A stretch of DNA of 46,171 nucleotides, taken from positions 1-46,171 of the forward strand of contig DATMBG010000020.1 in NCBI GenBank assembly GCA_035559535.1, written 5' to 3'. Below, piece by piece: positions 2,347 to 45,596 of the stretch (its first letter is position 1; every line of letters begins with the position of its first letter). This stretch comes from Candidatus Limnocylindrales bacterium. Its GTDB lineage: Bacteria; Moduliflexota; Moduliflexia; Moduliflexales; JAUQPW01. The notes beneath the pieces were generated by a model, which was not told the DNA's origin, made no database searches, and saw nothing but the letters and a program-made list of their open reading frames with translations. A program made the position numbers and the translations under genes.

Positions 2347-2823
2347 AGAGAAGAAAAGAAAACCAGGATAAACACTCCCCTCTATCCGTAGGCGTCAGGA
2401 TAAAGATGAAAGGCTTTGGATTTCCTCACTCCGGGGCCCTGCCTCCTAAGTTATAGGTATTCAGTTCTTAACTCTTTTAACCTGACGCCGGACCCTTTAA
2501 CCTCCTCTCTTTCCTCCTCCAAAATGCAAAACCAGGAAGAAGAACAGGAATAGTACTGTCCTGGGCCTAAACAGGAAGATGATCGTTTTACCTGTTGACA
2601 ACCCTATCCCAAATGAGATATACAATCAGAATAAAACTAAGTCCTCTTATTGAATCTGCCTTTAAACAATTCAGCGAGGGATAGGGTTCCATGAGCGATA
2701 TAGTCAAAACCCCTGCTTCGAACCCTCAAAGGGAGGTCTACGGTCCTCTGGACAGGTGATCACGACCGGCCTGGTCCTGTTAAGGGTAAACAGGGTCAAG
2801 TCGGTGAAATTTACCTGGTGGTT
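2347..2823. other. Intergenic region and transporter-operon leader
   Basis: No supported gene. A 9-bp inverted repeat GGCGTCAGG (2391-2399) / CCTGACGCC (2481-2489) with an 81-nt loop lies downstream of ftsH; it lacks a T-tract and looks more like a dispersed repeat than a terminator. A good promoter (2595-2624) starts a leader of nearly 190 nt. A 22-codon reading frame (2691-2759) in this leader has only a weak upstream purine run, and I do not call it a gene. Confidence 0.5.
2595..2624 (+). promoter_or_regulatory. Predicted promoter of the ABC importer operon
   Basis: TTGACA at 2595-2600, 18-nt spacer, then TATACA at 2619-2624. A start near 2631 would give a leader of nearly 190 nt before the first permease, unusually long for an operon with no recognised riboswitch. 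Confidence 0.5.
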
Positions 2824-3669
2824 ATGAAATCCGGCACCCAACGCATAAAACAAAGATTCGTTCCCTTTATCCTCTTACTTCCAGCGGTAACCCTGACCGT
2901 TCTATTCCTGATACTTCCTCTATTTTACCTGGTCATGATGAGTTTCACAGAGGGGTCCAGCTTTTTCTTTGAGCAAAAATTTACCCTGGATAATTACAGG
3001 GAACTGTTCAGTCGCTATCGAGGGGTCATCCGAACTACTGTGTTCCTGGCCTTGGCTTCTGCCATAGTTGATCTCCTCTTAGGTTATCCCTTTGCCTACT
3101 TCCTCCAGAGCCGCTTTCCCTATAAAGACCTGGCCCGGGCCTTGATAATCTTTCCCCTCTTTGGAGGGCTGTATCTGGCCTTTGGTTTATACTATTTGTT
3201 TTTACCTAAAGGGGTTCTTTCACCCCTTTTAGAAAGGCTAGGGATTAATGTGTTATCCCTCCTCTACTCAGAGAGTTCTGTTATTCTTGGCATGGCTATT
3301 TTAACTTTTCCGTTCATGGTTGCAAATATTATGACAGCCCTTCAGAACATCGATCCTATCTTAAAAGAAGCTGCTTTATGCTTGGGGGCCAGCCGGTTCA
3401 GAATTTTTTGCAGAATTACCCTTCCCTTGACATGGTCTGGTATGGTAGCCGGGTTTTTAATGTGCTTCGGTTGGAACCTGGGAGCCTATGAAATACCTCT
3501 ATTCCTGGGCAGCCAGGCCGAACAGCAGGTGGTCTCTATTAAGATGTATCAACAGGCTCTGGTCATGTCCAATTATGGACTCTCTGCAGCACTGGGCATG
3601 GTTGTCATGGCCCTTTCCTTTTCGGTAACTTATCTCTCCCTGAGATTTTCCAAAGGAGCCTTGACATGA
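2824..3669 (+). CDS. ABC transporter permease, PotB/spermidine-putrescine type
   Basis: Inner-membrane permease of a binding-protein-dependent importer. About six hydrophobic segments are visible, the first directly after the short basic N-terminus (LLPAVTLTVLFLILPLFYLV). The EAA loop that contacts the ATPase is present as EAALCLGASRFRIF about 100 residues before the end. Length (281 residues) fits the PotB/PotH group. A GTG two codons upstream (2818) is an alternative start; no strong ribosome-binding site distinguishes them. It is followed after 40 nt by the second permease and then an ATPase, the usual order for polyamine, thiosulfate or Fe3+ importers of this superfamily. The substrate cannot be told from the permease alone. 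Confidence 0.85.
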   Translation: MKSGTQRIKQRFVPFILLLPAVTLTVLFLILPLFYLVMMSFTEGSSFFFEQKFTLDNYRELFSRYRGVIRTTVFLALASAIVDLLLGYPFAYFLQSRFPYKDLARALIIFPLFGGLYLAFGLYYLFLPKGVLSPLLERLGINVLSLLYSESSVILGMAILTFPFMVANIMTALQNIDPILKEAALCLGASRFRIFCRITLPLTWSGMVAGFLMCFGWNLGAYEIPLFLGSQAEQQVVSIKMYQQALVMSNYGLSAALGMVVMALSFSVTYLSLRFSKGALT

Positions 3670-4630: not shown

Positions 4631-4869
4631 TATTTCTCAGAGGGTAATCCCGGTGACGGTTCCTATCTTACATAATGGGCTATTAGACAAAGGAAAAAGA
4701 GGCGGTGTATTTCTATGCAAGACTAAATATCAGGCGCTGTAAATCCTGCAGGAGTTGTAATACGAGATGGTATTTTGGTAATTGACGAAATAAAGCAAAT
4801 TAGCATTTCGTGCCGACCGGGGCAGTTCTTCTAACTACGGCAGGATTTACGCGACGCAAAGGATCAGGA
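4631..4869 (+). repeat. Inverted repeat between permease and ATPase genes
   Basis: TAAATCCTGC (4740-4749) is repeated inverted as GCAGGATTTA (4840-4849), with partial similarity continuing inward (AGTTGTA against TAACTAC). The right arm lies in the open stretch just before the ATPase start and creates a spurious upstream GTG start (4810). The element separates the permeases from the ATPase by 239 nt and may be a dispersed palindromic repeat. Function is unknown. Confidence 0.4.
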
Positions 4870-5973
4870 ATGGCTTCTGTCAGGTTGGTTAATGTCACCA
4901 AAAGATATGGAGAAATTGTAGCTGTGGATCGAGTTAACCTGACCGTTGAAAACGGGGAATTTATAACCCTTCTAGGTCCGAGTGGGTGTGGGAAAACAAC
5001 CACTCTCCGGATGATTGCGGGACTTGTGGAGCCTAGCGAAGGGGAAATCTATTTTGATGACGAACTGATGAATGCCGTACCGGTCAATCGGCGAAATGTT
5101 GGATTTGTTTTTCAAAGTCACGCTTTATTCCCCCATATGACCGTGCAAGAGAACCTTGCGTTCGGGTTGAAAGCGAGGGGATTTCCCAAGCAAGAAATCA
5201 AAAAGAGGATCCAGGAAGTCCTCCATCTGGTGGAGATGGTGGGATTTGAGAAGCGTAAGCCGCATCAACTGAGTGGTGGTCAACAACAGCGGATCTCATT
5301 GGCTCGGGTTCTCGTGGGAGATCCCACGGTGCTACTTTTCGACGAACCCTTGAGTTCCCTGGATTTCAATCTACGGAATACCCTGAAGTTTCAAATCAAA
5401 GAGCTGCAGCGGAGAACCCGAAAGACGGCCATTTATGTGACCCATGATCAATCCGAGGCTTTTGCTATCTCCGATCGGATTGTCGTCATGGATCGCGGCC
5501 GAATTCAGCAGATCGGAACCCAACTGGACATTTACCTGAGGCCCCAAACACCCGTTGTAGCCAACTTCATAGGCTCCCATAATTGCTTCCGGGGAATTTT
5601 AACAGAATGGGAACCGGAGAGCGGCTTGGGGGTCCTTGATTGCGAAGGCCTGCTCCTTAAAGTGAGGATGTCAGAAGGTTACTACCCTAGAGCAACGCAG
5701 GACTCTACACCCCATCGGGTTTTGGCCTACTTGCGTCCGGAAGAGATAGAGATCCTCGATCATCCCGAAAATGAAGCCTATCTAAATTGTTTCCGGGGCC
5801 GAATTCAACAGGTAATTTTCGAAGGTTCCACTCTCCGTGTCTATGTAGAGGTAGCCGATCGTATCCTGCAAGCCGAAGTAAGCGGAAAAAAGCGGTTGAG
5901 CTTCTTCGGCAAAGAAGGACTCAACGTTTATATCGGTTTCAGCGATCTAACCCTGATACGGGAGAAGGAATAA
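4870..5973 (+). CDS. ABC transporter ATP-binding protein, PotA/MalK type
   Basis: Cytoplasmic ATPase that powers the importer. Visible motifs are Walker A GPSGCGKT (residues 36-43), Q-loop VFQSHALFPHMTV, signature LSGGQQQR, Walker B VLLFDEPLSSLD and the switch histidine in YVTHDQSEA. A C-terminal TOBE-like regulatory region follows (about residues 250-367), as in PotA, FbpC and CysA. The ATG at 4870 gives MASVRLVNV, the usual family N-terminus, with purines (AAAGGATCAGGA) just before it. A GTG 20 codons earlier would add residues encoded by a repeat arm. Together with the two permeases and the convergent binding protein it makes a complete importer. Confidence 0.9.
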   Translation: MASVRLVNVTKRYGEIVAVDRVNLTVENGEFITLLGPSGCGKTTTLRMIAGLVEPSEGEIYFDDELMNAVPVNRRNVGFVFQSHALFPHMTVQENLAFGLKARGFPKQEIKKRIQEVLHLVEMVGFEKRKPHQLSGGQQQRISLARVLVGDPTVLLFDEPLSSLDFNLRNTLKFQIKELQRRTRKTAIYVTHDQSEAFAISDRIVVMDRGRIQQIGTQLDIYLRPQTPVVANFIGSHNCFRGILTEWEPESGLGVLDCEGLLLKVRMSEGYYPRATQDSTPHRVLAYLRPEEIEILDHPENEAYLNCFRGRIQQVIFEGSTLRVYVEVADRILQAEVSGKKRLSFFGKEGLNVYIGFSDLTLIREKE

Positions 5974-14340: not shown

Positions 14341-14871
14341 ATGAATTCTAAGATACTTCCTTATGTTGTTTTGCGGCCCGGTTCGAAAAATCGCTTTTCG
14401 GCTTATCGTATATACTTTCTGGGCTTTTCTCAGCGGGGTAAAGTTTTTCTCTTAGGGGTCATTTTAACAGGAGTTTGCATGGGTTGTACCGTCCCACCTC
14501 CTGGTCCCATTACACCGACCAATACCCCTCCGGAATTAAGCGATTTCATTTTTCCCAGTCTGTACCGGGATATTTTTTTGAATAAAAATATCTATTATTT
14601 TCCAGGAGCCAGGGTCTCTTATAAAGACCCGGAAGCTAACCTGAGTCAGCTTATTCTTACTTTCCGACAAGGGATTACTTCCAGCTCTCTCATAGGTCAG
14701 GTGGTTACCTATTCTACCACTGGGACCCTGGCCCTGAACGGATTTGTAAGAAATATCGGAAGTCCAGGCCTGGATGTCTTCTCCCCCGGTACGGTTACGG
14801 TGAGCATTCAGGCTATAGACCGTGCAGGAGCTCGAAGCAATGTGCTAACCACGACCTTTGTACTATTGTAA
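14341..14871 (+). CDS. Hypothetical lipoprotein
   Basis: I do not recognise the family. The 176-residue product has a delayed hydrophobic signal (VFLLGVILTGVCMGC) with a lipobox cysteine in VCMGC, then a proline/threonine linker (VPPPGPITPTNTPPEL) and a mature domain of about 110 residues rich in beta-prone and polar residues (ARVSYKDPEANLSQLILTF, VTVSIQAIDRAGARSN). The end resembles an immunoglobulin-like strand pattern found in surface proteins. About 35 residues precede the hydrophobic stretch, long for a lipoprotein signal, so the true start may be further in. No ribosome-binding site precedes either ATG. The gene is followed after 16 nt by the Clp-like gene. Confidence 0.5.
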   Translation: MNSKILPYVVLRPGSKNRFSAYRIYFLGFSQRGKVFLLGVILTGVCMGCTVPPPGPITPTNTPPELSDFIFPSLYRDIFLNKNIYYFPGARVSYKDPEANLSQLILTFRQGITSSSLIGQVVTYSTTGTLALNGFVRNIGSPGLDVFSPGTVTVSIQAIDRAGARSNVLTTTFVLL

Positions 14872-14887
14872 GTGGAGGAAATCCAAG

Positions 14888-17800
14888 ATGAGATTCCCTG
14901 AAGAAATTATCCAAACCTATCCCTACCCTCTGGCCGTATCTGCCAGTCGGGTAAACAATGCAACCCAAAGCATGGAGGAGTATCTATGCCTGGTTAGCCT
15001 GTTTGAAACGAGTTTAAAATATCTCGCTTCTGTGAGTTTAAGTCATTATCTTCAGGATGAGATCGTAGATGAAGGGATCCAGGAACAGTTAAAAAAACTA
15101 TTACGCCCGACCCCAGGAGCATGGAACGATATTTTGCGAGCCTGCATACGTTTTTATACCCATACCCTTCATAAACCTTCCCTGATATCTGAACTATGTA
15201 AAATATATACGACCCGACTACTCCATCGAGATCCTGGAACTCAGGAAATACTCGTGTGGTTTCGTTTCATGGCTAAATACCTTAAGGAAAAGGAAAAAGT
15301 AGTCCAGAAACATGTTTCCCTACAGCAGGTTTTAGACCTGATGGTTCAATACCATCACAAAATCTGGGGTCATAGAGTTCAACCCCTTACCCCTAAGTTT
15401 TGCGAAAAACATGTGGAATACTTTCGGACCGGCATGCAGGGAATATTAAAACGAATAGCTTTTTTGACCCGTTATCCACTACGATATATTAAAGAAGTCC
15501 GGCAAATCAAGGATCAGAATTGCCATATCCTGTTCCATTATATGGGGGTAGCGAGGCGACAAAGTGAATGGTATACGGATTTAAGTATCCCGGAAGGAAG
15601 GTTATACCTGTGTGATGAACAAGGGGTACCCGGATTAACCCTTTATCCTTTATGTGTTATCTATCACGGTCATGTTTACATGTTAGAGTATGATAGGCAA
15701 GAGAAGGGCCTCCGCTATAGAGATTGTGAGACGGGAGAATTTTTGGGGTCGGCTTCGCTCTCTCGTTCTTCCCTTTTCCAGTTGATAGGTACTCCTGCCA
15801 ACAAACTGGATGAGTTAGAATTACCCGTTCCACCAGAGCCAGAGGAGGATGGACTGGAGATCGATGAAACTCCCTTCAAACCTTTCCTGGGTGAACTACT
15901 GGCCCAGTTTAACGAGGAAGGACGCCAGGCCCTGGAGATGGCATTGGGTGAAGCGCTCCGTATCGGTCACTTCTGGTTAGGAGTTGAATTTTTACTCATG
16001 GCCCTTTCCAGGCAAGATGGGAGACCTCTGAGTGATTTGTTACATGGAATAGGACTAAGCCGAAGCCATTTCCGGGGTGTGCTGCGGGGTGTGGTGGGCA
16101 TTGCGACCCGTGAAGATTGGAGTCAAATGAATGCGATCGCTTTGGGGAGAAAAGCTCTTCCTAAATTAAAAGAAGCCAGGCCTACAATCATGAGGAGGGG
16201 TTTTAATTCTGAGGATAAACCCTTCCCTGTGATTACTCCGCGGATGAAGACTGTCTTACAAGAGGCCGTTCAGTTGGCCGGAAATGGGAAAGCCGGGCAT
16301 ATTCAATTGTTATCTGCAGCTTTACAGCATACCCAATGCCTGGCCGTTAATCTGTTGTTGAGGCAGATAGCCGAATCCGGTCAGGATTTGAAAGAATTTC
16401 TCAACTGGGTTAAACAGCTTGCAAACCATGGAGATCGTGTACCCAGTAAGATCGTAAAATCTCCTATAGAATTGCCCAAACAAGGGCCAGGACCCAATGC
16501 CCGTGCCTCACAATTACCTCTACCACCTCTCCTGCGAAATAAAGGCCTGCTGGATAGATATGGACGTGACTTAACTGCAGAAGCGCGGGCCGGTAGACTC
16601 CACCCGGCTATCGGGGTAGACGGAATCCTACGACGCCTGAAACGTATTTTGATCCAGCGAGAGAACAACAATCCTTTACTCATCGGGGAACCGGGGGTAG
16701 GTAAGACGGCCATTGTCGAAGGATTAGCCTACGAATGGGTCTATCAAGGTTCAGAATTACCAGAATTGTCCGGTAAGCGTATCGTTGAGCTTTCGATCAA
16801 CGGCCTGATTGCAGGTACTAAATATCGGGGCGAACTGGAAGAACGGATTGAGCAGATCCTGGCAGAAGTCAAAGCGGCACCCGATGTGATCATCTTTATC
16901 GACGAAATTCATACCGTTTTGGGTGGTGGGGGGGATAGCAGCACGAACCTGGCCAATATACTCAAACCGGCTTTGGCCAGAGGTGAATTTCCCTGTATCG
17001 GTGCAACGACCATAGCCGAATACCGCAAGTATATCGAAAAAGACCCGGCCTTGAGCCGACGTTTCGAAACCATCGTGGTAGAAGAACCCAGTATGGAAGA
17101 TACCATAAAGATCTTAAAAGGTCTTCAACAGGGCTTTGAAGACCATTATGGGATCCCTATTACCCAAAGTGGGATAGAGGCTGCGGTTCGGCTTTCAGTT
17201 CGCTATTTACCCGATGAGAGGCTACCGGCCAAGGCGATTAAACTTCTGGAACAGGCCGGAGCTTACACCAAACTTCCCTCATTGATTGATCTGGCGAGGG
17301 CAGACCGGGAAGAAATAACCCCCTCTCGCTTTAACGAGGTCAATGAAGATGTAATTCGTTACCTGCTGGCGCGAAAGACCGGAATTCCCCTGGAACGGTT
17401 AATGGGGGACGAGCTGGAGCGTATCAAAGGTATTGCAGAGGCGCTTCAAGCCCAGGTCATTGGACAGGATGAAGCCATCCAGGCCGTCGCTCAGGTTATT
17501 AAACGGGCACGAGCCGGATTGGGGAATCCCCTTCGACCTATTGGAGTATTTCTTTTTGTAGGACCAACCGGGGTTGGTAAAACCGAATTAGCCCGGGCAT
17601 TGGCCGGTTTTCTCTTTCATAACCGCGAAGCAATGATCCGCCTGGATATGTCAGAATATATGGAAAAACATCAGGTCTCCAGACTGATAGGTGCCCCACC
17701 CGGCTATGTAGGTTATGAGGAAGAGGGTCAACTCACGGGCCCGTTACGGTTGCGTCCCCATAGCGTCGTTTTATTGGATGAAATGGAAAAGGCCCACGAA

Positions 17801-18376
17801 GAGGTTCATAACCTCTTCTTACAACTCTTCGAAGAGGGCCGCCTGACCGACTCCAAGGGACGTACGGTGAGTGGTCGAGAAGCCATCTTTATTATGACCT
17901 CCAATGTCGGTTCAGAGGTATATCGCCAACAATCTATGGGTTTCCTCCCCAAGGAAAAATTGAGCCCGGAATGGCTCAAAGAAAAACAGGCCGGGATCGA
18001 AAAAGCACTCCGTATCAAATTTAAACCGGAGTTCCTCAATCGCATTGATCGGATAATCCACTTCAATCCTCTTACCTTGCCGGACGTCATCCGTATCTTC
18101 CAGTTGCAATTCGTGTCGATCCAGAAGCGATTACTGGATTACCATGAGATTCAACTCAAAATTACACCGGAAGCGGTTCAGTATGTCTGTGAAGAAGGCT
18201 ATGATACTTTAAACGGGGCCAGACCCCTAACCCGCGCCATGGATAGGCTGATTGTCGAACCGTTAACCGATTTGATCCTGGATGGAAAAATTAAGGCCTA
18301 CAACACCGTTACCATTCACTATGACGGTTCACAATTGACCTTTGAAAAAGGGTCGATCCCTGTAGAGATTCTGTGA
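14888..18376 (+). CDS. ClpA/ClpC-like double-AAA unfoldase with an unrecognised N-terminal module
   Basis: A 1162-residue Hsp100 protein. Residues 1-330 form a helical then mixed module I do not recognise (starting EEIIQTYPYPLAVSASRV, with LFETSLKYLASVSL). Two Clp N-repeat-like blocks follow (about 335-410 and 445-510). D1 has Walker A GEPGVGKT (600-607) and Walker B IIFIDEIHTV; D2 has GPTGVGKT (892-899) and VVLLDEMEKA. The long coiled-coil middle domain of ClpB is absent. An MGF tripeptide at 1017-1019 sits where ClpA/ClpC carry the ClpP-docking loop. No clpP lies in the window. The ATG at 14888 has GGAGGA upstream. The stop overlaps the FHA gene start by 4 nt. Compare the standard ClpB at 43005-45596. 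Confidence 0.85.
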   Translation: MRFPEEIIQTYPYPLAVSASRVNNATQSMEEYLCLVSLFETSLKYLASVSLSHYLQDEIVDEGIQEQLKKLLRPTPGAWNDILRACIRFYTHTLHKPSLISELCKIYTTRLLHRDPGTQEILVWFRFMAKYLKEKEKVVQKHVSLQQVLDLMVQYHHKIWGHRVQPLTPKFCEKHVEYFRTGMQGILKRIAFLTRYPLRYIKEVRQIKDQNCHILFHYMGVARRQSEWYTDLSIPEGRLYLCDEQGVPGLTLYPLCVIYHGHVYMLEYDRQEKGLRYRDCETGEFLGSASLSRSSLFQLIGTPANKLDELELPVPPEPEEDGLEIDETPFKPFLGELLAQFNEEGRQALEMALGEALRIGHFWLGVEFLLMALSRQDGRPLSDLLHGIGLSRSHFRGVLRGVVGIATREDWSQMNAIALGRKALPKLKEARPTIMRRGFNSEDKPFPVITPRMKTVLQEAVQLAGNGKAGHIQLLSAALQHTQCLAVNLLLRQIAESGQDLKEFLNWVKQLANHGDRVPSKIVKSPIELPKQGPGPNARASQLPLPPLLRNKGLLDRYGRDLTAEARAGRLHPAIGVDGILRRLKRILIQRENNNPLLIGEPGVGKTAIVEGLAYEWVYQGSELPELSGKRIVELSINGLIAGTKYRGELEERIEQILAEVKAAPDVIIFIDEIHTVLGGGGDSSTNLANILKPALARGEFPCIGATTIAEYRKYIEKDPALSRRFETIVVEEPSMEDTIKILKGLQQGFEDHYGIPITQSGIEAAVRLSVRYLPDERLPAKAIKLLEQAGAYTKLPSLIDLARADREEITPSRFNEVNEDVIRYLLARKTGIPLERLMGDELERIKGIAEALQAQVIGQDEAIQAVAQVIKRARAGLGNPLRPIGVFLFVGPTGVGKTELARALAGFLFHNREAMIRLDMSEYMEKHQVSRLIGAPPGYVGYEEEGQLTGPLRLRPHSVVLLDEMEKAHEEVHNLFLQLFEEGRLTDSKGRTVSGREAIFIMTSNVGSEVYRQQSMGFLPKEKLSPEWLKEKQAGIEKALRIKFKPEFLNRIDRIIHFNPLTLPDVIRIFQLQFVSIQKRLLDYHEIQLKITPEAVQYVCEEGYDTLNGARPLTRAMDRLIVEPLTDLILDGKIKAYNTVTIHYDGSQLTFEKGSIPVEIL

Positions 18377-29386: not shown

Positions 29387-29917
29387 ATGGCTTTAAAAAT
29401 TGGAGATAAAGCGCCTGATTTCAAATTATTGGGAGTTGATCATAAAACCTATTCGTTGGATTCTTTCAAGGACAAAAAAATCGTGACGGTGATGTTTATT
29501 TGTGTACACTGCCCCTATGTCAGAGCCTGGGAGCCCCGCTTTTTACAGATTCAAAAGGATTATGCCGATAAAGGTGTAACCCTGGTCGGTATTACTTCCA
29601 ACGATCCGGTTAAGTTTCCCGAAGACAGCTTTGAAAACACGGCAAAATGGGCCAAGGAAAAGGGATACAACTTCCCTTATTTGTACGACGAGGATCAATC
29701 GGTTGCCAGAGCTTACGGTGCAGAACGGACTCCTGAAGTTTTTGTTTTCGATGAAAAGAGAATTTTGCGCTATCATGGCCGGATTGACGACAATCATGAA
29801 GATCCCACCAAGGTTACGTCTCATTATCTCCGGGATGCTTTAGATGCCATATTGGCAGGAAAACCGGTTCCCATCGCCGAGACACAACCAGCCGGATGTA
29901 CCATTAAATGGAAGTAA
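29387..29917 (+). CDS. Thioredoxin-fold (AhpC/TSA-like) redox protein
   Basis: A 176-residue cytoplasmic thioredoxin-superfamily protein. It opens MALKIGDKAPDFKLLG, the usual AhpC/TSA start, and carries a CxxC pair C39 and C42 in FICVHCPYV. The cis-proline region is ERTPEVFVFD. A C-terminal cysteine lies in PAGCTIKW. Proteins of this kind (thioredoxin family with a CxxCPYV motif) are widespread but poorly characterised; peroxide or disulfide reduction is the likely activity. The start has a strong site (GAGGAGG) about 6 nt upstream. The SDR gene begins 4 nt after its stop, so the two are co-transcribed. Confidence 0.85.
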   Translation: MALKIGDKAPDFKLLGVDHKTYSLDSFKDKKIVTVMFICVHCPYVRAWEPRFLQIQKDYADKGVTLVGITSNDPVKFPEDSFENTAKWAKEKGYNFPYLYDEDQSVARAYGAERTPEVFVFDEKRILRYHGRIDDNHEDPTKVTSHYLRDALDAILAGKPVPIAETQPAGCTIKWK

Positions 29918-29921
29918 ACCC

Positions 29922-30710
29922 ATGGAACTCAATCAAAAAATTATTTTGATTACCGGGGCTTCTTCTGGAATAGGAAAAGATACGGCCATTGCAATGGCCG
30001 AGCGGGGAGCTCGGGTGATTCTTTGCGCACGTTCCGAAGATAAGCTTCAGCAGGTAGCAGCAACTATCCAACAGAAGGGAGGTTTTGCTCTACCTGTTCC
30101 CTTAGACGTAACCCGGCGTGCGGTTGTGGAAGATGCCGTTAATACGGTCCTGACCCGGTTGGGTCGTATAGACATCCTGGTGAATAATGCCGGAATCGGT
30201 TACTTTGGAACCCTGGTAGATATGCCTCTGGAGGCTATGGAAAAGGTCATGGCCGTAAATTTTTGGGGGGTTATCCACTGTACCCAGGCGGTCCTTCCTG
30301 CCATGATCCGGCAGAAATCCGGGCAGATCATCAATGTAGCCTCCGTGGCCGGAAAACGCGGAATCCCCGGCCTGGCAGTCTACTGCGCCAGTAAATTTGC
30401 CCTGGTAGGCTTGACCGAATCCCTCCGCGCTGAAGTAGCCGATTATGGAATTCAGGTTATTTTGATCTGCCCCACCTCTACCGATACCCCTTTTTTTGAA
30501 AACTCGGGTACCGACGGTAAAATACCCAATAAATCCAGAGGCCTCGGTATGATGAGCTCAAAAGCCGTCGCCGAAGCTATTGTAGAAGCCTCCATCAAAG
30601 GCAAGCGGGAAGTAGTTCTTTCAACCTCCGCTAAAGCCCTGTTAGCTATGAATACCCTTTTTCCAGGCCTGGTGGACTGGGGAATGCGAAAAGTACTTCA
30701 ACGCCGATGA
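29922..30710 (+). CDS. Short-chain dehydrogenase/reductase (SDR)
   Basis: A 262-residue classical SDR. The NAD(P)-binding motif TGASSGIG lies near residues 11-18, followed by CARSEDK (a basic residue after the second strand hints at NADP), NNAG and the catalytic Y154-x-x-x-K158 in YCASK. The protein extends about 20 residues past the core with basic residues at the end (MRKVLQRR). It begins 4 nt after the thioredoxin-fold gene. An upstream in-frame start inside that gene (29844) is rejected because MELNQKIILITGASS is the normal family start. The substrate is unknown. Confidence 0.88.
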   Translation: MELNQKIILITGASSGIGKDTAIAMAERGARVILCARSEDKLQQVAATIQQKGGFALPVPLDVTRRAVVEDAVNTVLTRLGRIDILVNNAGIGYFGTLVDMPLEAMEKVMAVNFWGVIHCTQAVLPAMIRQKSGQIINVASVAGKRGIPGLAVYCASKFALVGLTESLRAEVADYGIQVILICPTSTDTPFFENSGTDGKIPNKSRGLGMMSSKAVAEAIVEASIKGKREVVLSTSAKALLAMNTLFPGLVDWGMRKVLQRR

Positions 30711-32152: not shown

Positions 32153-33493
32153 ATGAAAACTATCTCTTACCCTCCAGGTCCCAAACCTAAATTTCCAGGT
32201 AATCTCCTGTTGGCTTTTCGTCGTGATCCGACAGGGTTTCTGTTAGAAGCAGCCCGTAAATACGGGGATATTGTTTACTTTAAAATGGGACCTCAACCTG
32301 TTTTTTTATTGAATCATCCGGATTATATCAAAGATGTACTGGTTACCCACAATCGGAATTTTGCCAAAAGTCCCAGGCTCGCATTAGCCAAGAACCTGTT
32401 AGGAGAGGGTCTTTTAACCAGTGAAGGTGAGTTTCATCGTCGTCAGCGGCGACTTGCCCAACCAGCCTTTCATCGCCAGCGAATCGCAACCTATGCCAGG
32501 ATTATGACCGATTACGGGGTGCGGATGCGGGAGCGCTGGCAGGATGGAATGACCCTGGACATAGCCCAGGAGATGATGGACCTGACCATGACCATTGTAG
32601 CAAAGGCCTTGTTTAATGCCGATGTTAAGTCTGAAGCCCAAGAGATCCGGGAGTCCTTGACGATTGCTATTGAATTGTTCAGTCGGGTTACCCTCCCCTT
32701 TGTGGAGTTGATCAACAAGCTTCCTCTCCCCAGCAATCGTCGTTTCTACAAAGCACGGGAATGCCTGGATAGGGTTATCTACGGAATTATCCGTGAGCGT
32801 CGGGCCCATGGAGGGGATCAGGGGGACCTCCTCTCCATGCTACTGCTGGCTCAAGATACGGAAGGGGACGGGGGAAGTATGACAGACTTGCAGTTGCGTG
32901 ATGAGCTTATGACACTTTTTTTAGCCGGTCATGAAACAACGGCCAATGCATTGACCTGGACCTGGTATTTACTTTCCCAGCATCCCTCTGTAGAGGCAAA
33001 GTTCCATGCCGAACTCGATACCGTTTTAGCAGGGCGGCCCCCCACCGTCGAGGACCTTCCCCGGTTGAAATATACCGAGATGATTTTCTCTGAATCCTTG
33101 CGTGTTTATCCCCCTGCCTGGGTGATCAGTCGTCTCGTTCTCAATGATTACGAGGTGGGCCCCTATGTCATTCCGGCTAACTCCATCATTCTCATGAGCC
33201 AATACGTCATGCATCACGATCCTCGTTATTTCCCCGACCCCTTTGTTTTTGACCCGGAACGATGGACCCCTGAAGCTCAAGCTGAAAGACCCAAGTTCTC
33301 CTATTTTCCTTTCGGAGCGGGACCTCGACAGTGCATTGGAGAATCCTTTGCCTGGATGGAAGGAATTATGCTCCTGGCTACCCTGGGCCAAAAATGGAAA
33401 ATGCGGCTTGTCCCGGGTCATCCCGTTGTACTTCAACCTTTGATTACGTTGCGATCCAGGTATGGGATGAAAATGACGCTGGAGCAACGCTGA
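32153..33493 (+). CDS. Cytochrome P450
   Basis: A 446-residue soluble P450 monooxygenase. The haem-binding loop [14 protein letters not shown] has the cysteine ligand C394. The oxygen-activating I-helix motif is AGHETT, the K-helix E-x-x-R is ESLRVYPP, and the PERF-type region is FDPERW. There is no N-terminal membrane anchor. The general look ([13 protein letters not shown] start, CYP4/CYP102-like core) suits fatty-acid or terpene hydroxylation, but the substrate is not readable. No ferredoxin or reductase gene is adjacent, so electron partners lie elsewhere. Confidence 0.95.
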
Positions 33494-40031: not shown

Positions 40032-41303
40032 TCACTCCTCAACCTCTAAATTAAACAACTTTTGAACTGCCTGAATATAGACGGAACCTTCATCGGTGTA
40101 AGAGAGTTTTTTCAAAGCCACCAAAGGGTCGTGGAGAATTTTATTGGTAATGAGATTGACCATAATTTGGATTTTTTCCAGATCTTTTTGGGAAAGACTT
40201 TTCAGCTCCGGCAATCGTCGTTCCAGTTCCGTTCTGCTAATGGTCTCAATCTTTTTCCGTAAAGCTTTAATAGTCGGAACGGCGTCCTGGGCTTTGAGCC
40301 ATTTGGAAAATTGAAGAACTTCTTGCTGGATAATCTCTTCAGCCCGTTGAGCTTCTTTGGCCCGCTCTCGAATATTGGCTTCGACCACCGCCTGCAGGTC
40401 ATCGATGTCGTAGAGATAAACATTATCCAGTTGATTAATATCCGGGTCCAGATTTCGAGGTACCGCAATATCAATCAAGAACATGGGGCGATTCTTCCTC
40501 AATGAAAGAAGTGCTTTGATATCCTCGTACTTTAAAAGATAATGGGGAGATCCCGTAGAACTGATGACAATATCTATCGTGATCAGAGCTTCTGAGATCC
40601 GATCAAACGGAATAGCCGTTCCTTGAAAAGCCTTAGCCAGCTCAACTGCTCGCTCGTAGGTTCGATTGGTTACAAGAACCCTTTGAACCCCTTCTGAAAT
40701 GAGATGGCGTACAGCCAGCTCACCCATTTCACCGGCTCCGATGATCAAGACTTGCTTATCCTGGAGGCTTCCAAATATTTTTTTGGCTAATTCGACGGCA
40801 GCAAAGCTAACCGAAACGGCATTCCTGGAAATCCCGGTTTCTGTGCGAACGGCTTTAGCAACTTTGAAAGCCTTATGCATCAGGGTGTGTAAGAAAAAAC
40901 GGGTGGTATTACTTTCACAGGCTATTTTATAAGCTGCTTTCATTTGGCCTAGAATCTGAGGCTCTCCCAAGATCATGGAATCTAAACTGGAAGCAACCCG
41001 GAAAATGTGGGCCACCGCCTGATCTCCTTCATAAACATACAAATATTTTTCCAGAACAGACCTCTCTACCTGCTGATAGGTTGCAAGAAATTCTTTGACC
41101 GTTCTGATTCCTTCCTCTGTAGAAGAAACCACCGAATAAATCTCTACCCGGTTACAGGTGGAAATAATAAAATTTTCCAGAATTCCCTTGGCCTGATGCA
41201 ATTGGGTGAGCGGCTTTTCCAGCTCTTTATCAAAGAAGGCCAATTTCTCCCGAATCTCTACGGGAGCTGTTCGGTGATTAAGTCCTACAACGATGATATT
41301 CAT
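40032..41303 (-). CDS. hemA: Glutamyl-tRNA reductase
   Basis: First enzyme of the C5 haem pathway; it reduces glutamyl-tRNA(Glu) to glutamate-1-semialdehyde with NADPH. At 423 residues it is of normal length. The catalytic cysteine is C50 in [11 protein letters not shown]. The N-terminus [15 protein letters not shown], the [13 protein letters not shown] segment, the NADPH-binding [13 protein letters not shown] and the C-terminal dimerisation helix are all visible. It lies 22 nt after hemX and before hemL, an order known from many bacteria. An early lysine or the N-terminal region often mediates haem-dependent control in other species, but this cannot be judged here. Confidence 0.97.
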
Positions 41304-41325: not shown

Positions 41326-42156
41326 TTAAAAAAGATGTAATCTTCTCTCAGAAAAATAATAAATCGCCATGAAAGTAATCAAAATGTAAGAGAATCCCAG
41401 AATGGTCAAATAAGAAGCCTTTCTTCCTCTCCAACCTGCCGTAACTCGGGCATAGATAAGGATGGCATAAATAATCCAGACAATAATGGCAAAAATAGTC
41501 GTCGGATCCCGGCTGAGGGGATTTACACCTCTAAACTTGGCCCAAATGGCTCCAATGATAATGGCTAATGTCAACAAGGGGAATCCAATCAACAAGGCTT
41601 GATAGCTTAAATTATCCAGAATTTCTAGAGAAGGAAGCCGATAATAAAGCGCCCCCGGTTTTTTTGACTTGAGCTGTCGCTCCTGAATAAGATACATGAC
41701 GGCCGCACAGGAGGCAATGGCAAAAACTGCATAACCCAGAATGGCTACCACGGCATGAAGACCGATCCAGTAACTCTGGACGGCAGGGAGTGAAGTCTTC
41801 CCCTCCGGCAGTGAATAGGCATAGATGAACAGCATAAAAGCAATGGGAATAACAAAAGCCCCCAAAACGGGAATATGGTACTTAAGATCGACAATCAAAA
41901 ATACCAGAATCGTGGCCCAAATAAAAAGAAAGAGAGTCTCTTTGGAATTGGAAAAAGGGGAGATCCGAATAATGGTAAATTTAAATAAGATGGTAATGGT
42001 ATCTAACGTAAAACTTACCACCGTCAATGCCGTAGCAAGCCGGGCCAAAAAGGGCTTTTTCGTAACAAGAAAAGAAAGATAACCCAGGGTCGCCAAAAAG
42101 AAGATAACTAAGAGAATCTCGAATAAAAAAAAGTTTATGATGTGAGTGGTATCCAT
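41326..42156 (-). CDS. HemX/CcsA-like membrane protein lacking the WWD motif
   Basis: A 276-residue integral membrane protein with about eight helices, of the CcsA/CcmC/HemX family. The segment ISPFSNSKETLFLFIW and the histidine H134 (YWIGLHAVVAILGYAVF) match the family. The tryptophan-rich WWD loop that presents haem in CcsA is not there: residues 202-220 read GAIWAKFRGVNPLSRDPTT. A conserved histidine before the ISPFSNS segment is replaced by D52. This argues for a HemX-type role beside hemA (in Bacillus subtilis HemX lowers HemA levels) rather than cytochrome c maturation. No ribosome-binding site is seen; the start is only 7 nt after the stop of the selenoprotein gene, so translation is probably coupled. 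Confidence 0.8.
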   Translation of the reverse strand: MDTTHIINFFLFEILLVIFFLATLGYLSFLVTKKPFLARLATALTVVSFTLDTITILFKFTIIRISPFSNSKETLFLFIWATILVFLIVDLKYHIPVLGAFVIPIAFMLFIYAYSLPEGKTSLPAVQSYWIGLHAVVAILGYAVFAIASCAAVMYLIQERQLKSKKPGALYYRLPSLEILDNLSYQALLIGFPLLTLAIIIGAIWAKFRGVNPLSRDPTTIFAIIVWIIYAILIYARVTAGWRGRKASYLTILGFSYILITFMAIYYFSERRLHLF

Positions 42157-42163
42157 ACGCGAG

Positions 42164-42667
42164 TTAATAAGGCCAGTAAAAGGCGTATTTTTTATCGATA
42201 GCCTCTTTGATGGCGGCCAGGGAATAACCTTTTCCCTTCATTTCATACGCCTCCAGCGTAATAGACCGACAGATCTCTCAACCTGCAGAATGGGTATCCA
42301 CATAACAATCTAAATTATTCTGATGGTGATGGGTCCTATAACATCCACAATAACAGGGCAGGTTTTCGACCAGCTCCGGATCTGCCTGGGCAATCTGATA
42401 AGCTAAAGCTGTTTTATCGGTAAACAGAGTCGGAGATAAGGTCTTGGGTCGAGGAGATCGAGGTATGGCCGGCAGGCTAAACCCGGTCCGTTTTTCGGTC
42501 CTGAAACCAGAAGCCGACCGGAATCGCATCCCCAGAAGGAAATATATATCAACGCCAACAATCAAAATCAATAAAAAGATCAACGCTACCACGGCAGAAC
42601 GGCTCGCAGCCAACCGGTCCAAGAAGTTCTTTTTCGGTTTCCCAGGATTTTGAGTATTCTCCTCCAT
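42164..42667 (-). CDS. Membrane-anchored CYCGC-motif selenoprotein (in-frame TGA read as selenocysteine)
   Basis: A predicted 167-residue protein. An N-terminal helix (about 25-47) anchors it. The soluble part has C105, C107 and C109 (LPCYCGCY), a His-rich turn, C121 (LDCYVDTHSAG), then TGA (42278-42280) at position 130. The frame continues E-I-C-R-S-I-T-L-E-A to the ending KKYAFYWPY and TAA (42164-42166). TGA thus occupies the first position of a C-x-x-C pair (UEIC, 130-133). A hairpin follows the TGA at selenocysteine-insertion spacing. I recall, unverified, that NCBI names a CYCXC family (seleno)protein. GAGGA precedes the ATG. TGA is a true stop in other genes here. The gene heads the hemX-hemA-hemL run. 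The redox role is inferred. Confidence 0.82.
42246..42260 (-). promoter_or_regulatory. Candidate bacterial SECIS hairpin
   Basis: On the minus strand TACGC (42260-42256) pairs perfectly with GCGTA (42250-42246) around the 5-nt loop TGGAG. The loop starts 23 nt after the TGA and has G as its second base; bacterial SECIS elements typically place a G in the first two loop bases at 16-37 nt from the codon. The stem is short, so the structure needs computation. Confidence 0.55.
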
Positions 42668-43004
42668 GTAAAAATCCTCTTTCTTAGAGGTTATCTCATC
42701 AACCTTATAAGTTCCTTAAAAGCTTTAATCGCGTCCCAAAGATTTCGTTAATATTTTATTACAAGCCTTGCAAACAAAGCAAGAAATATTTTAACAACTG
42801 AAATATTACAGCCGGGAATCAAGAAATCTCGAGAAAGAATCTTTATTTTTTTCATTCTCAATGATTCGGACAATCCAGAAGATCGGCAAAAGAATTGTCG
42901 GGTTGGGGTGGTGAGGGATACCTGCCATTGAAAAAAAATAAAGACCTCGAAGGTTTTGAAAAACCTTCGAGGTCTTTCGTCTGAATGGATATTCTATCCC
43001 GGTA
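42668..43004. other. Intergenic region with the clpB terminator and AT-rich promoter zone
   Basis: No gene is seen. The half nearest the selenoprotein gene is AT-rich and contains TAAAAT-like -10 candidates on the minus strand, the best of them 18 nt after a weak TTGCTT; I do not call a firm promoter. The half near clpB contains the terminator at 42940-42977. Confidence 0.5.
42931..42977 (-). terminator. Rho-independent terminator of clpB
   Basis: A perfect 17-bp stem joins 42940-42956 to 42961-42977 with a TGAA loop. Read on the minus strand it is followed at once by a run of eight T's (42938-42931). It lies 28 nt beyond the clpB stop. Confidence 0.93.
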
Positions 43005-45596
43005 TTAGGCCTTGCGGAACACCATTTCCCTTCGGGTCGGGTCTGCGTCGACTATGATTTTATCTCCTTCGGAGAAGGTACCTTCCAGAACTTTCATAGC
43101 CAGGGGGTTTTGGATAAGGTTCTGAATGGCACGTTTTAGAGGTCGTGCTCCATAAGTCGGATCATAACCCACTTCGGCTAAGAGTTCTTTAGCCCTGTCG
43201 GTCAATTGAATTTCGATCTTTCTCTCTGCCAGGCGTTTCTTGAGATTCTCGACCTGGATCTCAATGATGGCCTTCAGGTGCTCCCGAGTCAATCCGTGGA
43301 AGATGATGATCTCATCGATTCGGTTAAGAAACTCCGGTTTAAAATGTGCACGCAGAGCTTCCAACACCCGACGTTTCATTTCCTCATAGTCTTTAGTTCC
43401 CAGATCCTGGATCCACTGACTTCCGATATTGGAGGTCATAATGATGACGGTATTTTTAAAATCCACCGTACGACCCTGACCATCGGTCAAGCGGCCATCG
43501 TCTAAGATCTGTAAAAGAATATTGAAAACCTCGGGGTGGGCTTTCTCGATTTCATCAAAGAGGATGACCGAATAAGGTCGTCTCCGAACGGCTTCGGTCA
43601 GGTAACCCCCTTCTTCATAGCCCACATAACCTGGAGGAGCTCCGATCAAACGGGCCACAGAGTGTTTCTCCATGAATTCGGACATATCGATCCGTACCAT
43701 GGCCTGTTCATTATCAAAGAGGAATTCGGCCAGAGCCCGGGCAAGTTCTGTTTTACCCACTCCGGTAGGGCCTAAGAAGATGAACGAACCCGTAGGCCGA
43801 TTGGGATCCTGAAGCCCTGCCCGGGCCCGACGAACGGCATTGGAAATAGCCCGGATGGCATCCTCCTGGCCTACCACCCGTTTTTTCAACCGTTCCTCCA
43901 TCTTAACCAGTTTTTCCCGCTCTCCTTCCATCAATTTGGAAACCGGAATACCCGTCCATTTAGCAATGACCTCGGCAATATCCTCGGCATCAACTTCTTC
44001 TTTAAGCATTTTCTGTTTCTTTTGGAGTTCATTGAGCTGTCGGGTTTCTTCGGCCAATTCCTTCTCTAAATTGGTCAGGACTCCGTATTTCAATTCTGCC
44101 GCTTTACCTAAATCCCCACGCCGTTGAGCCTGCTCTATTTCCATTTTGGTTTGTTCGATTTGCTCATTGATCCGGCTGATCTTCTGGATATGTTCTTTTT
44201 CCTTCTGCCAATGGGCCTTCATCTCCACCAGTTTCTCATTCAATTCGGCAATCTCCCGGTTAAGTCGCTCCAGTCGTTCTAAGGAAGATTTATCTTTTTC
44301 TTTCTTCAAGGCTTCCCGCTCGATTTCATGCTGCATAATCCTCCGCTGAACCTCATCGATCTCTGTGGGAAGACTATCAATTTCGATTTTTAAGCGGGAT
44401 GCCGCTTCGTCGATGAGATCGATGGCCTTGTCGGGAAGGAACCGATCGGTGATATACCGATGGGATAAGGTTGCTGCGGCTACCAGGGCCGAATCGGTGA
44501 TCCGGACCCCGTGATGGACCTCATACCGTTCTTTGAGCCCTCGGAGGATCGCAATGGTATCTTCTACACTGGGTTCGCCTACAAAAACAGGCTGGAAGCG
44601 TCGTTCCAGGGCGGCATCTTTCTCGATATACTTCCGATATTCATCCAGGGTTGTGGCGCCTATACACCGGAGTTCTCCACGGGCCAGGGCCGGTTTTAAC
44701 ATGTTGGAAGCATCCACAGCTCCCTGAGCCGCTCCAGCTCCCACCAGGGTATGGAGTTCATCGATGAAGAGAACAATAGAGCCTTCAGCTTCGGTGATTT
44801 CTTTCAGAAGGGCTTTTAACCGATCTTCAAACTCACCCCGATACTTCGTCCCGGCGATCATAGCCCCCAAATCCAGAGCTATCAGACGCTTGTCCTTCAA
44901 ACTTTCCGGAACATCTCCACTGACGATACGCTGGGCTAATCCTTCTACAATAGCCGTTTTACCTACTCCGGGCTCTCCAATCAGAACGGGGTTATTTTTG
45001 GTACGTCGCGAAAGAACCTGAATCACCCGACGAATCTCATCGTCTCGACCGATCACGGGATCTAATTTTCCTTTCCGGGCCAGTTCGGTTAAGTCTCTTC
45101 CATAACGGGCCAGGGCCTGATACTTTTCCTCCGGGTTTGGATCGGTGACCCGCTGTGACCCCCGAATACTGACAAGGGCTTTAAAGATGTTATCTCGGGT
45201 AACTCCCTGATCCCGTAACAAAGTTCCGGCAGCGCCTTGTTTCTCGGCAGTGATGGCAATCAGCAAATGTTCGGTGCTGATGTATTCGTCTTTGAGTCGA
45301 TTTGCTTCCTCGGCCGCAGTATCAAAAACCTGTTTTAACCGCGGGGCGATATAAGCCCCTACTTCTCCACCGTAGACTTTAGGAACTTTGTTGAGATGAT
45401 CCTTTAACCGTTCTGCAATCAGTTGAGGGTTTGCTCCTAGTTTCTGGAGGATGGGAAGTACGACCCCTTCCGATTGTTCGAGGAGTGCCAACAACAGATG
45501 TTCGACGTCAATCGTCTGATGCTGATACTTCTCGGCAAGGATTTGGGCTTGCTGAACTGCTTCTTGAGCTTTTACAGTAAATTTATCAAAACGCAT
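43005..45596 (-). CDS. clpB: Chaperone ClpB
   Basis: An 863-residue Hsp100 disaggregase that works with DnaK to rescue aggregated proteins. The N-domain has two repeats ([15 protein letters not shown] and [16 protein letters not shown]). D1 carries GEPGVGKT and [11 protein letters not shown]; a long charged coiled coil follows (about residues 405-525, the ClpB middle domain that contacts DnaK); D2 carries GPTGVGKT and [11 protein letters not shown]. No ClpP-docking IGF-type loop is present: the segment runs [19 protein letters not shown]. That separates it clearly from the other Hsp100 at 14888-18376. The gene has its own terminator. No obvious CIRCE or sigma32 promoter is visible upstream. 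Confidence 0.97.

Follow-up and report, generated by a model that had tools for sequence, protein, structure and literature searches.

The coding region and its neighbours

The window comprises the whole stretch of 46,171 nucleotides that was analysed, and is an entire contig (C20); the genome measures 5.6 Mb and is 96% complete. On its minus strand, a reading frame starts with ATG at position 42667, runs for 129 codons to an in-frame TGA (42280–42278), and continues for another 37 codons to TAA (42166–42164), which confirms the coordinates of the original prediction. With the TGA read through, this coding sequence (42164–42667) yields a product of 167 residues that is assigned by profile matches and homologue alignment to the CYCXC family (NF041379/PF13798), with a predicted selenocysteine (Sec) as residue 130. 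The protein consists of an N-terminal helix, a variable linker, the pattern P-CYCGC-x11-C-x8-U-x-x-C, and two helices. All of the elements listed here lie on the minus strand. A membrane anchor is predicted from the structure model and hydrophobicity at about residues 25–47 (42527–42595), within a modelled helix comprising residues 15–51. The CYCGC motif (residues 105–109, 42341–42355) carries cysteines that are invariant in the family alignment. The UGA (42278–42280) occupies the first position of the UxxC motif, where the aligned homologues all have either a Cys codon or TGA, and its partner, as judged from the sequence and the alignment, is Cys133 (42269–42271). The continuation that follows the TGA site is EICRSITLEAYEMKGKGYSLAAIKEAIDKKYAFYWPY, and the motif itself reads U130-E-I-C133.

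The family named in the original prediction exists as NF041379 (NCBIfam 'CYCXC family (seleno)protein', OS_HP4). The product scores 112 bits with this model (positions 2–89 of 90) when read through and 71.6 bits when cut at the TGA, so that it exceeds the curated cut-off of 90 bits solely in the extended form, which also has both the CYCxC motif and the downstream U/CxxC. The PF13798 (PCYCGC) match likewise spans the TGA, with 51.6 bits against a gathering cut-off of 25. Given the gain from 71.6 to 112 bits and the PF13798 match across the TGA, the continuation is not a product of chance, and the view that this stretch represents real protein is borne out. The family is already published together with its Sec and UxxC motif, being listed with one Sec in a 2026 review (PMC13188914), where the first prediction of OS_HP4, in an Olavius algarvensis symbiont, is attributed to its reference 60; the gene described here adds a member. 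It shares with NF041379/OS_HP4 the CYCxC motif and a UxxC that opens with Sec, differs from it in nothing essential, and adds a species to a group that is small. The PCYCGC (lipo)proteins of PF13798, mostly Cys forms from Bacillota and Chloroflexota, have the same domain with all cysteines aligned, whereas in the window protein Sec is present, the motifs are more closely spaced and, as seen by sequence inspection, a transmembrane anchor stands where many Cys forms have a lipobox.

TGA serves as an ordinary stop elsewhere in the window. Five other genes end with it, at 2818–3669, 14858–18376 (Clp unfoldase), 29844–30710 (SDR), 32153–33493 (P450), and 40032–41303 (hemA), in agreement with the earlier view that the code is not reassigned. 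Upstream, the gene is separated from clpB by a terminator-like hairpin with a T run, read directly from the sequence (42931–42977, minus strand). The next gene, only 7 nt downstream (41326–42156, minus strand), encodes a CcsB/HemX-like cytochrome c assembly protein (PF01578, 127.7 bits; TIGR03144 ccsB, 167.8 bits, below the cut-off of 187.6), and is followed on the same strand by hemA for glutamyl-tRNA reductase. The adjacency of CcsB/HemX and hemA could reflect an ancient haem-operon layout with no connection to the window protein. The contig carries two Clp-type AAA+ unfoldases (14858–18376 and 43005–45596), of which the former is divergent, with 1172 residues, and overlaps at its end with the 107-residue protein that comes next.

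Decoding of the UGA codon

Four genomes of the phylum were sampled, and the gene is present in two of them, both of one genus and both with TGA. These sister species differ at 30 of the 387 nt preceding the TGA, are identical over the 53 nt that run from it, and the sole residue replaced among the 37 following codons is F163L. Screening 84,980 species turned up 363 relatives, and 80 loci were retained from these; with the plasmid and whole-genome matches added, about 100 distinct sequences were read. The codon for residue 130 is TGT, TGC or TGA in every one of them, and the homologues do not end at the TGA but continue past it with sequence that is conserved across phyla. The TGA forms occur in the genus of the window, in Chloroflexota, Gemmatimonadota, Tectomicrobia-like and Actinomycetota-like genomes, and on a plasmid of Thermomicrobium roseum. 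By parsimony, at least seven changes between Cys and Sec are needed, and three on well-supported branches alone, in a tree of 103 columns that is poorly resolved. Neither the viral contig scan nor the phage search yielded a homologue. The plasmid member from T. roseum (NC_011961, L029 4839–5291) is of the UxxC type and has a perfect 7-bp hairpin when read through; its annotated CDS (4839–5156) stops exactly at the TGA, the kind of truncation that had been anticipated, and the window gene is a clean example of a selenoprotein shortened by standard annotation.

A hairpin, UACGCU-GGA-GGCGUA (42246–42260, minus strand), is located 23 nt after the UGA. In the bacterial SECIS model, the loop comprises 3–9 nt with G in one of its first two positions, the stem 4–16 bp, the distance from UGA is 16–37 nt, and the energy is −7.5 kcal/mol or lower (PMC13188914). 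The window hairpin, with a loop of three nucleotides starting with G, a stem of six pairs and a spacing of 23 nt, lies within this geometry. Its energy varies with the segment that is folded, being −5.0 kcal/mol for the hairpin by itself and −9.6 kcal/mol when the 38 nt following the UGA are taken. Among the TGA forms this hairpin is the weakest, and the 38-nt fold is unexceptional when compared with shuffled sequences (z = −1.56). When the peptide was recoded synonymously 5000 times, only 28 of the versions had a hairpin as good. In the first set, each of the seven TGA forms has a hairpin of SECIS geometry at −5 kcal/mol or lower, against eight of 77 Cys forms (Fisher p = 1e-6, with relatedness ignored), and so do all 14 further TGA forms. 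Compensatory changes are found in the group with 26-nt spacing, where stem pair 24–40 is A-U, U-A or G-C and pair 29–35 is A-U or C-G, and in the 21-nt group, where pairs 22–32 and 24–30 swap A-U and G-C. The structure of the hairpin is maintained while the encoded peptide varies.

Absence of the selenocysteine machinery would have spoken against the original prediction, but selA (622 bits), selB (409 bits), selD (389 bits), and the selC product, tRNA-Sec with anticodon TCA (UCA), are all encoded in the genome. Its selD (L010, G000:C29 76668–77594) is itself a selenoprotein gene, with the in-frame TGA in CGGUAAK, in agreement with the UxxK motif that PMC13188914 gives for SelD. Of the genomes sampled from the contig scan, all five with the UxxC form and both with a double, UxxU form have selA, while four genomes with Cys forms were without it. 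The selB gene is present in each of the nine TGA-bearing genomes in which it was sought, namely the sister species and eight others, including the UxxU genomes G052 and G263. The machinery is also present in many Cys-form genomes, and the link between the TGA form and Sec machinery is one-way, as expected.

Three readings of the codon may be compared. Were the TGA a genuine stop, the gene would encode a 129-residue protein or be a recently broken CYCXC gene, in keeping with the normal use of TGA at the ends of other genes in this genome. The 37 codons past the TGA are nevertheless conserved across phyla, with a single replacement between the sister species, both of which share the TGA; the Sec machinery is present, and the site holds only TGA or Cys. 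The truncated or broken gene was rejected on the conserved continuation, the shared TGA and the machinery, and we consider it very improbable. UGA is somewhat leaky in bacteria generally, and plain read-through, with Trp, Cys or some other amino acid incorporated, could likewise give the full-length chain. This reading, which we rejected as still less credible, is at odds with the restriction of the exchange to Cys and TGA, with SECIS-like hairpins at matching spacing, and with the co-occurrence of selA and selB. Decoding as selenocysteine is almost certainly correct, because the family match needs read-through, the Sec machinery is complete, the TGA is kept in the sister species, and Cys/TGA is the sole exchange at the site, and because of the SECIS-like hairpins, their compensatory pairs and the co-occurrence of selA and selB. 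SelB, directed by the hairpin 23 nt past the UGA, would insert selenocysteine from tRNA-Sec(UCA). At the level of sequence, the comparison establishes homology across the TGA, the Cys/Sec exchange, a conserved hairpin and complete Sec machinery, from which we infer actual insertion of selenium into the window protein.

Fold, probable relationship to CcmH and proposed function

In the structure model, residues 84–164 have pLDDT above 90 and form short helices, with helix 131–145 directly after U130 and helix 150–164 following it. The modelled start of a helix right after U130 would correspond to the usual position of a redox U/CxxC. The window protein is very probably an anchored extracytoplasmic domain, and its orientation in the membrane would be such that the domain faces outside. 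Lipoprotein anchoring was considered and dropped, as no lipobox Cys was seen, unlike in many Bacillota forms.

A Foldseek search of the PDB gave as the most probable hit the periplasmic domain of CcmH (2hl7, probability 0.44, TMt 0.55), a thiol oxidoreductase that acts in cytochrome c maturation; no match there (best E 2.4) or among viral models was significant. When PDB sequences were searched with the family profile, no credible hit emerged (Saposin-A, E 0.014; ferredoxin, E 0.48). Pfam CcmH (PF03918) gave no match to the window protein at E up to 10, and none at the gathering cut-off. The CcmH lead was examined further by comparing profiles. Alignment by hhalign to 40 CcmH sequences, many of CxCGC type, gave 95.9% over 62 columns, and 46% with all cysteines masked, whereas 60 column shuffles gave 3.5% or less, the reversed profile 0.5%, and four unrelated families 1.4% or less. 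The nine sequences of the window's own clade alone gave 93%. An earlier comparison with 14 CcmH sequences was weak (52%), and the match is strong only with 40. On the strength of hhalign with its shuffled, reversed and unrelated-family controls, and with Foldseek only suggestive, the CYCXC domain is most likely a remote homologue of CcmH at the level of the superfamily, and not a member of that family. Common to it and CcmH/CcmL (PF03918; 2hl7) are the remote profile similarity, which includes CcmH of CxCGC type, a small helical domain, and a redox Cys pair. The window protein differs in having no direct Pfam match, no LRCxxC at the place where CcmH has it, and an insertion between CYCGC and CxxC. 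As the genome already carries a CcmH-family gene, the window protein would be an addition to it and not a replacement.

The gene contexts agree on respiratory haem and copper proteins, with counts that stand without a background rate. Among 57 sampled neighbours from Chloroflexota, Gemmatimonadota and other groups, a CuA-type COX2 domain occurs in 11 and a cytochrome c domain in 10; NapH-like ferredoxins are also found in the first two phyla. Cys homologues on plasmids, which are biased towards metal-resistance genes, adjoin multicopper oxidase, CueR, metal P-type ATPases, copper-binding proteins, HiPIP and DsbD. In one genome (G423), the family gene is divergent from what appears, when read by eye, to be a Rieske protein.

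We propose that the N-terminal anchor holds a small helical domain, distantly related to CcmH, that carries CYCGC, Cys121 and U130-x-x-C133, with the redox cysteine at the helix start exchanged for selenocysteine. On the outside of the membrane, this domain would reduce or exchange thiols, or pass metal on, its clients being cytochrome c or copper (CuA-type) respiratory proteins during their assembly. An anchored extracytoplasmic selenol/thiol oxidoreductase for assembly of cytochromes or copper enzymes is probably the best mechanism overall, and the chances that the thiol/selenol redox role in haem/copper enzyme assembly is specifically CcmH-like appear about even. Both the redox role and the cytochrome or copper client are inferred. 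Alternatively, the protein could be mainly a chaperone of copper or soft metals, or a metal-resistance factor, with CYCGC, Cys121 and U/CxxC binding metal and redox activity secondary or absent. This would suit the CueR, multicopper oxidase, P-type ATPase and copper-binding neighbours of the plasmid Cys forms, the cupredoxin/CuA neighbours in Chloroflexota, and the six Cys/Sec positions conserved in the family alignment together with His115 and His126. However, Sec at a helix start within UxxC is typical of redox catalysis, as established for thiol oxidoreductases, static metal binding rarely uses Sec, and the remote CcmH match points to a redox protein. We regard a predominantly metal-binding function as unlikely, and favour the oxidoreductase. 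A family of unassigned function thereby gains a testable place, that of CcmH-like redox chemistry in the assembly of haem and copper enzymes.

In G423, a CcmH gene (L138, G423:C449 9082–9429, minus strand) carries an in-frame TGA where LRCxxC has its second Cys, giving LRCPVU, and a strong hairpin follows after 18 nt. This gene is a candidate selenocysteine-containing CcmH from a single genome, where an assembly error is possible. CcmH is not mentioned in PMC13188914, and a literature search for CcmH with selenocysteine, judged on titles and abstracts, gave no selenoprotein paper.

The double-selenocysteine form and multiple copies

Five Actinomycetota-like genomes encode a UxxU form of the family, with two selenocysteine codons. 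The TGA pairs are located at 1322/1331 in L034, 7340/7349 in L039, and 6515/6524 in L091, and the remaining two members are found in G052 (L129) and G263 (L130). A single SECIS-like hairpin follows, 26 nt after the first UGA and 17 nt after the second, with both distances within 16–37 nt, and this one hairpin is predicted to serve both codons. No UxxU form of the CYCXC family was found in the literature searched, including PMC13188914, and it is apparently undescribed. What is new here is this form, the link to CcmH, and the gene context of CuA/cytochrome c, copper-handling and CcsB-like genes.

More tentatively, PCYCGC/CYCXC proteins might constitute a second branch of the CcmH superfamily, one that uses selenium and serves the assembly of CuA and haem respiratory enzymes, in which UxxU arose in Actinomycetota-like bacteria and is decoded twice by one hairpin, with CcmH itself occasionally a selenoprotein (CxxU, as in G423). 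The natural CxxC, UxxC and UxxU versions, sometimes in one genome, would make the benefit of one or two selenocysteines directly measurable. In G263 (L130, G263:C2 about 64411–65394), UxxC and UxxU copies are arranged in tandem, with CxxC and more UxxC copies elsewhere in the genome, and G052 has several family copies that differ in Cys/Sec content.
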